From Sporolactobacillus sp. THM19-2 (GTDB taxonomy: Bacteria > Bacillota > Bacilli > Bacillales > Sporolactobacillaceae), in NCBI RefSeq assembly GCF_004153195.1, contig NZ_SEMC01000006.1, positions 62,001-126,000 on the forward strand: a stretch of DNA of 64,000 nucleotides, read 5' to 3'. Both the position numbers and the translations under genes were made by a program. Positions 22,968-53,622 of this stretch are shown here, piece by piece; the first letter of the stretch is position 1; the number at the start of each line of letters is the position of its first letter. Below the pieces are notes generated by a model. The model was given only the letters and a program-made list of their open reading frames with translations. It had not been told where the DNA came from and did not search any database.

Positions 22968-23003
22968 TGAAAAAAAATTGCCGCAGCGCATTTGAAAAAT
23001 GAT

Positions 23004-23147
23004 AAAAGAAACTTCGATCAGTGGGGCTTTCGGGCGCACAGGACGCCCTCGTTTTTATCCGTTGTCATCTCCCGTCAGTTTGAGCCCCACCCGGTCCTGC
23101 TTGTATCCCCGCATGACCCTGAGGGGATACGGCCCGTTCATGCAGGA
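23004..23147 (+). repeat. Structured intergenic repeat family, copy A
   Basis: Begins GAAACTTCGATCAG and ends CCCGTTCATGCAGGA. Internal perfect stems: GGGCG/CGCCC (23032-23036/23043-23047), GTGGGGCT/AGCCCCAC (23021-23028/23083-23090), GTATCCCC/GGGGATAC (23103-23110/23123-23130) and TCCTGC/GCAGGA (23095-23100/23142-23147). Related copies are at 25832, 33013 and 43219. This looks like a folded RNA rather than a gene. Confidence 0.75.
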
Positions 23148-23211
23148 AAAATCTTTCAGCCCAACAAATTTCGTGTTATGATGTTATGATGTATATCAGG
23201 TCACAGGCACG

Positions 23212-25738: not shown

Positions 25739-25831
25739 TATGATTGGAAAACGAAACGAATACGATAATGAGTAAAATTCTTTTCATCACAGAAAATAAA
25801 TGAGAGAATATTTGATGTGGAAAAACTGACC

Positions 25832-26010
25832 AAGTGAAACTTCAATCAGCAGGTTTTTTCGGGCGCACAGGATGCGCTCGTTTTTAGCCTGCCTCACTTC
25901 CCCGCTGATTGTTCGTTGAACCCATCGGGCTGCTGCGGGCAGTACCCGGGGCCTGTTCGTTTCCCCCTCATGACTTTGAGGTGGGGGTCTTACTGCCCGT
26001 TCATGCGGGA
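25832..26010 (+). repeat. Structured intergenic repeat family, copy B (longest)
   Basis: Begins AGTGAAACTTCAATCAG and ends CCCGTTCATGCGGGA. Perfect stems: AATCAGC/GCTGATT (25844-25850/25904-25910), GCGCA/TGCGC (25863-25867/25873-25877) and GGGCAGTA/TACTGCCC (25937-25944/25991-25998). The last encloses a CCCCCTCA/TGAGGTGGGGG hairpin (25963-25986). A terminal CCCG/CGGG loop closes the element. It lies 80 bases before the second exporter gene. Confidence 0.8.
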
Positions 26011-26091
26011 ATAAAGAAAACCCTGCGAAACGCTGTTGCGCTTCGCTGCTTTTTTCTGTCTGAAAAATAGGAAGAGGAGCTTTTGATACTT

Positions 26092-32529: not shown

Positions 32530-32665
32530 TAACAAATCTATTTAGCAGAATCTGTTGCTTTTAGTTTAGCAGTTACAGCTGCTTCTTTCATATATAAATA
32601 GCTTCGGGGTTTTTCACGTGTTAAACTATAAGAAAGTCGATAGGGTCGTACAGGAGGCATCATGT

Positions 32666-33010
32666 GTGGATTTACGTGATGTGCAGGAATGGGAAAAGAA
32701 GTTTTACAGCAGACAGGGATGGCGCGATCTGCCGCCCTATATCAGAGTTGGTTTTCTGATGGAAGAGGTTGGTGAAGTCTCACGTGCTGTCCGTACTTGT
32801 GAAATTGGCAGGGATCATCATCCGGAAGAGGCGCGAAAATCAAAGGAAGAGATCAGGCAGAATTTGGCTGAAGAGATGGGCGATGTGCTGAGCAATCTGG
32901 TCATCCTTGCCAATCTGTATGACCTGAGCCTTGAAGATCTGGTCCGTGCGCACCGGGAAAAACTGTATCAGCGTTTTCACTGCAGCGAGCAAGATGTTTT
33001 TCAGTCATAA
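32666..33010 (+). CDS. MazG-like nucleotide pyrophosphohydrolase
   Basis: About 114 residues. 'FLMEEVGEVSRAVRT' and 'LAEEMGDVLSNLVILANLY' provide the ExxE and ExxD metal-binding helices of the all-alpha NTP pyrophosphohydrolase fold. These enzymes remove non-canonical or excess NTPs. The start is GTG at 32666 with a perfect AGGAGG eight bases upstream; an in-frame GTG at 32618 lacks a site. Base composition is back to that of the genome core, so it lies outside the acquired island. Repeat copy C follows directly. Confidence 0.85.
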   Translation: MDLRDVQEWEKKFYSRQGWRDLPPYIRVGFLMEEVGEVSRAVRTCEIGRDHHPEEARKSKEEIRQNLAEEMGDVLSNLVILANLYDLSLEDLVRAHREKLYQRFHCSEQDVFQS

Positions 33011-33012
33011 TA

Positions 33013-33073
33013 AAGTGAAACTTCAATCAATTGGGGCCTTTCGGGTGCACAGGACATATCCGTTCATGTGGGA
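33013..33073 (+). repeat. Structured intergenic repeat family, copy C (internally deleted)
   Basis: Starts AAGTGAAACTTCAATCA, keeps the CGGGTGCACAGGA block, then jumps to the end block CCGTTCATGTGGGATAAA. The central hairpins of copies A and B are absent. Confidence 0.7.
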
Positions 33074-33116
33074 TAAATCGCAGCATGCTGTTACGGAAAA
33101 AAGGAGGAACCATACT

Positions 33117-43136: not shown

Positions 43137-43218
43137 GAAGCAGATCATGCCGATCGATGTTCCATTTCTGCTATACTTAAGTCAGGTTTACCAGGTTTCC
43201 ATGGGTTTGCATCCTGAA

Positions 43219-43315
43219 TAAAGTGAAACGTCAGACAGTGGGATTTTCTTCATCCCCCACGGATTGTCAGTTGAACCCGTACCCTGAGGTGGGCGTCTTA
43301 CTGTTAATGCGGGAT
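43219..43315 (+). repeat. Structured intergenic repeat family, copy D
   Basis: Starts AAGTGAAACGTCAGACAGTGGGA, keeps the block 'CATCCCCCACGGATTGTC', 'GTTGAACCCGTACCC', 'TGAGGTGGGCGTCTTACTG' and ends AATGCGGGATAAAA. The CAGTGGGA/TCCCCCAC pairing is retained although changed in sequence. Confidence 0.7.
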
Positions 43316-43354
43316 AAAAAAGGATCCGCGGAGCATGCCGCAGATCCTTTTTCT
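43315..43354. terminator. Bidirectional terminator
   Basis: AAAAAAGGATC-GCGG and CCGC-GATCCTTTTT arms give a stem with A/T runs on both sides. It serves the small minus-strand gene and any transcript from repeat D. Confidence 0.75.
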
Positions 43355-53438: not shown

Positions 53439-53463
53439 GAGTCCATCGGTTAATTAAATATTT

Positions 53464-53622
53464 CTTATCCAGAGTGGTGGAGGGACAGGCCCTATGAAAC
53501 CCGGCAACCTCATGATCTATCAATGAAGGTGCTAATTCCTGCAGAAGGCGCTGCGGCAAATTCTGAGAGATAAGAGAAATTCGGAAACGAACAGCCTCTC
53601 TTATCGGAGAAGCTTTTTTTTT
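53464..53622 (+). promoter_or_regulatory. SAM-I (S-box) riboswitch with transcription terminator
   Basis: The conserved core 'CTTATCCAGAG', 'GGAGGGACAGGCCC', 'ATGAAACCCGGCAACC' and 'AGGTGCTAATTCC' is intact. P1 pairs CTTATC (53464-53469) with GATAAG (53569-53574). GATAAGAG (53569-53576) can instead pair with CTCTTATC (53598-53605) as antiterminator; otherwise AGCCTCTC and GAGAAGCT form a terminator before a run of T (53613-53622). High S-adenosylmethionine should switch metQNI off. Confidence 0.95.

Follow-up and report, generated by a model that had tools for sequence, protein, structure and literature searches.

The ends of IS200/IS605 elements are processed by a Y1 transposase, which cleaves one strand at a time at motifs that it recognises by guide bases next to hairpins. 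In size, copy number, structure and its TTTAT motif, the nearest described counterpart of the element presented here is bcr1, a likeness by description only, drawn from portions of four papers (PMC6542083, PMC3446304, PMC2267715, PMC3733652). These portions give bcr1 a length of 147 or 167 bp and a conserved structure (PMC2267715) and a mean of 39 copies per strain, tie its TTTAT motif to mobility and describe it as limited to the B. cereus group (PMC6542083), and call it MITE-like and intergenic (PMC3446304). The section of PMC4333381 drawn on here proposes the Bacillaceae-1 RNA (RF01690) as a CsrA-binding sRNA, with two matches to the CsrA-binding motif on its reverse complement.

The element that we describe in Sporolactobacillus sp. 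THM19-2 is real, widespread and gene-less, and behaves as mobile DNA; Bacillaceae-1 RNA corresponds to only part of it. Its size and motif agree with those of bcr1, since in one clean case a 155-bp insertion takes TTTAT from one copy to two. Unlike bcr1, with its B. cereus restriction, it occurs in Lysinibacillus, Siminovitchia, Virgibacillus, Terrilactibacillus and other genera. As in IS200/IS605-derived elements, hairpins lie at a fixed 10-nt distance from the end motifs and inverted repeats are lacking. We take it to be like the IS200/IS605-derived PATEs in its subterminal hairpins, its lack of inverted terminal repeats, its cleavage-site-like end motif and the guide-like bases at the hairpin feet; unlike them, it was found with no Y1 transposase bearing matching ends, and its left and right motifs are identical.

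The outer element had no Rfam 15 match at the thresholds used (gathering scores for the window, relaxed E-values for sets of 7, 20 and 20 loci). Six typical strings of it were absent from the literature searched, which omits most subscription journals and sequence databases. The original prediction had likened a hairpin and the end of the copies to IS200/IS605 or IscB guide-RNA-like ends, and had called for a comparison with HEARO and the TnpB/IscB guide RNAs; hairpins close to a conserved end are reminiscent of such elements. Neither HEARO nor any guide-RNA family appeared among the Rfam matches, and the scanned sequences carry no gene between the two ends; that the repeat derives from HEARO or from a TnpB/IscB guide-RNA element is very improbable.

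Four related stretches, A to D, had been predicted in the window, that is, the whole 64-kb stretch of DNA analysed, and all four are present at those places. They were recovered with a covariance model of 55 sequences, none of them from the window, which had been aligned using a first model that included A, B and D; the window was searched with filters off. The features are as follows, P2 and P4 being the two hairpins of the element; arm sequences are given for the plus strand.

23001..23151, minus strand: copy A, in decay and retaining part of the RF01690-like module (20.1 bits, E 0.018)
25828..26014, minus strand: copy B (100.8 bits, E 2e-20)
25843..25850, no strand assigned: P4 arm of copy B, CAATCAGC, pairing with 25904-25911 in the model alignment only; minimum-energy folds use these bases otherwise
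25851..25899, minus strand: P4-loop module of copy B resembling a degenerate Bacillaceae-1 (RF01690), limits approximate and set by eye
25904..25911, no strand assigned: second P4 arm of copy B, GCTGATTG, from the model alignment; minimum-energy folds use these bases otherwise
25936..25943, no strand assigned: outer P2 arm of copy B, CGGGCAGT, pairing with 25992-25999 in the model alignment and in both minimum-energy folds
25992..25999, no strand assigned: second outer P2 arm of copy B, ACTGCCCG, pairing with 25936-25943
33009..33077, minus strand: copy C (33.1 bits, E 2e-5)
43217..43318, minus strand: copy D, short form (53.0 bits, E 1e-9)

Copies B and D are clearly recovered, C as a remnant and A barely (E 0.018); the next score in the window is 11.6 bits. 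Copy B, a long form, is the best preserved, with its left motif ATAAA at 26011-26015 and its right motif decayed to ACCAA (both on the plus strand). In the model alignment, copy A is without P4 and much of P2. Copy C is a 69-nt deletion remnant that retains both ends and has lost most of P2 and P4; the stop codon of a gene with a MazG domain (32618-33010) overlaps the ATAAA of this copy (33010-33014). Copy D has TTTAT at both ends, no RF01690 module and a deleted P2, and is also found in G118, the second genome of the species.

The sequence blocks by which the copies had been recognised differ in their excess over chance in the window. Block CGTTCATGCGGGATAAA occurs 4 times at ≤3 mismatches (0.28 expected; 0/100 shuffles) and CGGGCGCACAGGA 5 times at ≤2 mismatches, 3 of them in the copies (1.13 expected; 0/100 shuffles). 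The corresponding figures are 10 against 7.9 (≤3 mismatches; 26/100 shuffles) for GTGAAACTTCNATCA and 25 against 15.6 (≤2 mismatches; 4/100 shuffles) for CTGTTGAACCC. Two details of the original prediction fell away on alignment. The change of stem bases between A (GTGGGGCT/AGCCCCAC) and B (AATCAGC/GCTGATT) is not shown to be compensatory since, in our reading, the pair in A joins a P4 arm to a P2 arm and is not homologous to the P4 stem of B. The CCCGTTCATGCGGG hairpin is not conserved: its CGGG pairs in P2, and the CCCGC end stays where CGGG has changed (e.g. L083, L166). The common orientation of the copies holds within the window; genome-wide, both orientations occur. Among ten window ORFs compared with Pfam, 8 match other families and 2 match none. 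The window also contains a SAM riboswitch at 53462-53576 (RF00162, 88 bits).

Read on the minus strand, the element spans about 155 bp and runs TTTAT, 10 nt, hairpin P2, linker, hairpin P4, 10 nt, TTTAT, its ends and linker being TTTAT / CCCGCATTAA / P2 / GCCCGATTGGTTCAACTAAC / P4 / GAAGTTTCAC / TTTAT. P2 is built of the outer arms CGGGCAGT/ACTGCCCG and the inner arms CCCCCACC/GGTGGGGG; the linker ends in TTCAACTAAC, and the arms of P4 are AATCAGTGGGGG/CCCCCACTGATT. Three alignments were used: A1, with 40 copies from the own genome; A2, with 111 less selected matches that include some wrong-strand hits; and A3, with 55 copies that match at E ≤1e-13 in 51 chosen loci, long forms having been left out save one. 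In A3, TTTAT is present on the left in 41/55 copies and on the right in 45/55, and lies exactly 10 nt from P2 in 36 of those 41 and 10 nt from P4 in 43 of those 45. TAA stands before P2 in 48/55, and TAAC before P4 in 53/55. Both TTTATs are intact in 51/111 members of A2 and in 13/40 of A1.

No terminal inverted repeats were found in the element, and no genes inside it in the sequences scanned; in keeping with the prediction, no nuclease gene was seen in it. Judged by ORFs of at least 90 aa, taken without a gene caller, a single one of the 33 own copies examined falls within an ORF. In 8 of the 29 own copies with an ORF there, the ORF ends ≤9 nt from the right end of the element, i.e. in ATAAA, as expected if insertion at that place is tolerated where TAA stays in place. 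The left and right guide bases seem coupled in the own copies (20 of 44 read), which looks like two subfamilies.

The own genome has 49 places matching copy B by blastn. With the covariance model, matches number 73 in the own genome and 80 in G118, a complete genome of the same species, counts that include fragments and some opposite-strand echoes. With the own genome included, the element is present in 34/118 genomes: none of the 13 from other species of the genus carries it, and four genomes from three other genera of the family do. A phylum-wide search found a match in 29/398 genomes, again counting our own. By pattern search, the named genomes hold at least 120 stretches; the 80 listed come from genera including Lysinibacillus, Cytobacillus, Siminovitchia, Virgibacillus, Oceanobacillus, Peribacillus, Sporosarcina, Psychrobacillus, Domibacillus and Terrilactibacillus. 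Altogether, it is a high-copy structured element found across many Bacillales and beyond. Among 20 stretches taken from 18 of the phylum-wide genomes, 18 retain by eye both hairpin regions in quite different sequence; in L455 and L457 the right half alone remains, and the end motif is altered in some (e.g. L441, L446, L456). One divergent copy lies about 20 nt from the start of an OLE RNA (RF01071; L442:1-101).

When four family sequences were compared by blastn with 72,556 plasmids, matches came from Pseudalkalibacillus, Peribacillus and Klebsiella only. The last is a shortened copy of the Bacillales element on Klebsiella grimontii plasmid CP079755.1, at 221560-221631 (L135:4973-5065). Phages gave 0 matches in 50,697 records, and no relative was confirmed in the viral contigs with a neighbouring gene that were searched.

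Evidence of mobility comes from a genome of another genus, G102, whose copy at C1:2004915 is missing from G120, with flanks 92 and 94% identical. The filled site reads ...GATTTA-ATAAA-[GTGAAAC ... GCGGG]-ATAAA-AAAAGCC... and the empty one ...AATTTA-ATAAA-AAAAGCC..., with one ATAAA. In this single clean case the two genomes differ by a 155-bp insertion, TTTAT being present once when empty and twice when filled. A second G102 copy, absent from G063, leaves a less clean empty site with a diverged immediate flank; the remaining members of 22 full or partial matches in two 400-kb stretches gave no further clean one. Four of five genomes of G102's genus have 41-49 match rows each, the best being 92-98% identical to the query copy. 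Beyond TTTAT, flanks are unlike one another (among 85 of 111 rows listed), and head-to-tail tandem copies have one TTTAT in common. We conclude that the element is very probably a non-autonomous, MITE-like piece of mobile DNA.

Within the species, the picture is older. Comparison of the own genome with G118 gave no clean empty site. Starting from G118, 53 of 60 loci could be paired directly with one in the own genome and two more (L298, L309) afterwards; L277 and L315 found their match at the ends of own contigs, L313 and L322 found none, and in L328 the flank matches without the element and does not end at TTTAT. From the own side, 5 of 59 loci were unpaired at first. L037 and L350 were paired afterwards; L346, which adjoins a rearranged stretch, has only one flank matched in G118, and L351 is partly deleted there. 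At L352, compared with L354/L364, a copy sits at the edge of a difference of about 5.7 kb between the two genomes, its flanks lying apart in G118. Tandem copy number differs as 3 vs 1 once and 2 vs 1 twice, which fits recombination between units. Since most compared copies are common to both genomes and decaying, the element appears to be old in this Sporolactobacillus species. In the 13 congeners, no element was seen by eye at the site of copy D, where the intergenic sequence has diverged too far for the site to be located.

The findings as a whole are probably best explained by a gene-less element of about 155 bp that would be moved in trans, as single-stranded DNA, by way of its hairpins and TTTAT. 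The moving enzyme would read the hairpins and cut at TTTAT. The likeliest candidate for it would be a Y1 (HUH) tyrosine transposase like those of IS200/IS605, to which TTTAT could be presented via TAA guides; this suggestion draws on the lack of inverted repeats, the equal spacing from hairpin to TTTAT and the TAA(C) feet, all of which resemble IS200/IS605 ends. That a Y1 enzyme moves the element is nonetheless a tentative view, as the search for a partner failed to yield one. Covariance model R1 was run over 30 Y1 loci, drawn from 13 genomes; in none of its 3 hits do the two ends of the element flank a Y1 gene, and the sole Y1 gene found in the own genome (L104) is without such ends. Y1 genes occur in 102/118 genomes, in 30/34 element-positive vs 72/84 element-negative ones, and thus show no association with the element. 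Element matches occur without any Y1 gene in G078 (20), G067 (11), G104 (2) and G105 (2). Among the loci and genomes compared, with neither common ends nor association, no Y1 gene qualified as the partner.

In one locus (L121:1006-1869 and flanks), repeats of the GGTTCCTGTCCC type border a Y1 gene that we presume to be RAYT-like, and the element occurs about 0.4 kb from that gene. This nearness is judged to be chance, because the genome has many copies and the gene adjoins other repeats. No gene-bearing version of the element was found either. There were 87 left and 167 right hits to the end motifs; 76 left ends have a right end within 400 nt, and 9 have none after them. A single pair of ends 2.9 kb apart (L242) was considered as a gene-bearing element and set aside, since the stretch includes a decayed end as well as a long ORF that looks ClpB-like by eye.

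One TTTAT before insertion and two after fit equally well the duplication of a target by another class of enzyme. A mobile element that duplicates its target, moved by a DDE transposase or a site-specific recombinase at TTTAT as suggested for bcr, is accordingly an alternative that we regard as unlikely though deserving weight. The same variant motif stands on both sides of L028 (TTTGAT) and L147 (TTTAC), as a duplicated target would leave it. Against it, terminal inverted repeats are lacking and intact and altered TTTATs on the two sides look independent, both motifs being altered in 16/111 members of A2 vs about 13 expected and in 3/55 of A3 vs about 2.5. Movement as single-stranded DNA remains our preferred reading.

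The original prediction had also proposed a repeat family with conserved secondary structure, selected as RNA. Its first half was upheld: the covariation is real once many genera are compared. In A2 (111 sequences), double changes occur in 33/33 pairs, with 425 cells vs 115 in shuffled alignments (0/500) and 46-76 in slid controls. In A3 they occur in 28/33 pairs, with 162 cells vs 34 shuffled; both alignments were fitted to the model and lean towards it. RNAalifold on A3 recovers P2 and P4 with 27 pairs, 24 of them with double changes, and outer P2 is 97.5% paired. The own copies alone give a weak signal: 11/33 pairs with double changes vs 7.7 in shuffles, 52/500 of which reach that number, 18 cells vs 9.6, and no structure from RNAalifold on a MAFFT alignment of 40 own copies.

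The level at which this structure is kept can be approached with a simple test, the frequency of G·U relative to A·C, which could tell RNA-level from DNA-level covariation. RNA helices tolerate G·U, and a one-strand RNA under selection should tolerate G·U more than A·C; this expectation rests on established knowledge, as a tRNA control proved invalid, ARAGORN printing only the pairs that it accepts. The counts of G·U vs A·C are 34 vs 29 in P2 and 16 vs 27 in P4 for A1, 66 vs 61 and 23 vs 23 for A2, and 29 vs 31 and 4 vs 10 for A3. G·U is not clearly commoner in any of the three, an indication that the hairpins are preserved at the DNA level and not as a one-strand RNA. The second half of the prediction, RNA as the level of selection, is weakened by this result.

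A structured non-coding RNA, either an sRNA or a UTR element, that is at the same time a spreading repeat and whose covariation reflects selection on the RNA seems improbable to us on this account. In addition, no clear orientation relative to neighbouring genes was found in 33 own and 15 other copies. The strong covariation across genera speaks in its favour, as do the folding energies, which lie below those of shuffles on both strands of copy B and L005 (z -2.4 to -3.7), the plus strand of B folding 10 kcal/mol lower than the minus strand. In the minimum-energy folds, copy B forms P2 and not P4 on either strand, and L005 has both kinds of helix. Two published observations also fit an RNA: the CsrA-binding motif matches on the reverse complement of RF01690, from the consulted section of PMC4333381, and the occurrence of about half of the bcr repeats in mRNAs, from that of PMC3446304.

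About equal G·U and A·C would also follow if template switching during replication copied one arm onto the other, the apparent covariation then being mutational and not selected. We judge this, too, to be improbable. It finds support in a hairpin-sized deletion in L348 and in one copy (L030:1423-1580; L315 in G118) whose inner P2 runs the opposite way from that of the other copies read and so forms an almost perfect palindrome, as template switching or an inversion inside the hairpin would produce; the opposite strand gives a match at the same place in the own genome and in G118. On the other hand, pairing is kept across genera with the TTTAT spacing and TAA(C) feet fixed, and it decays in the own copies, where 62/378 P4 cells of A1 are not Watson-Crick vs 25/548 in A3.

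Block CGGGCGCACAGGA belongs to an insert in the P4 loop that matches RF01690 on the minus strand. Own copies L019 and L032 score 42.8 and 41.9 bits against a gathering cut-off of 35; other copies stay below it, those of the window included, and the own genome has 7 matches at E ≤0.001. Counting our own, 68/118 genomes contain RF01690, at up to 41 matches apiece where no more than 39 candidates were scored. Of 30 RF01690 loci fetched, four lie inside the outer element (L045, L047, L050, L056) and 26 have no element detected at E ≤0.1. In loci of G096, G029, G094 and G102, the RF01690 stretch sits between P2 and P4 and not in the P4 loop, in the same orientation in three and in the opposite one in G102. 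Within the element the RF01690 stretch forms a module of its own, which, from these differing places and orientations, seems to have entered more than once. Its pairs include 3 G·U and 6 A·C (22/30 loci with a full-length match). A mobile DNA element thus houses a named RNA family, Bacillaceae-1, a finding relevant to the idea that this family is a CsrA-binding sRNA.

A broader reading, which we offer as speculation of low probability, would see one phylum-wide gene-less family of a single plan, spread as single-stranded DNA by a possibly housekeeping enzyme and not by a resident IS transposase, with exchangeable hairpin modules; the Bacillaceae-1 module may itself be mobile DNA.

RF01690 was also met in other surroundings. 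In L046 and L057, around 1501-1567, it lies, by eye, in another repeated-looking sequence (GCGCCTTGGCGTATTTGCGCCCAGATTTT ... GGCATCCGCCGGAGGCTTTAACTTTATTCAGC), which has a TTTAT too. In L059 (1501-1567) it stands, again by eye, directly before the start of an apparent 16S rRNA gene and after apparent tRNA genes.
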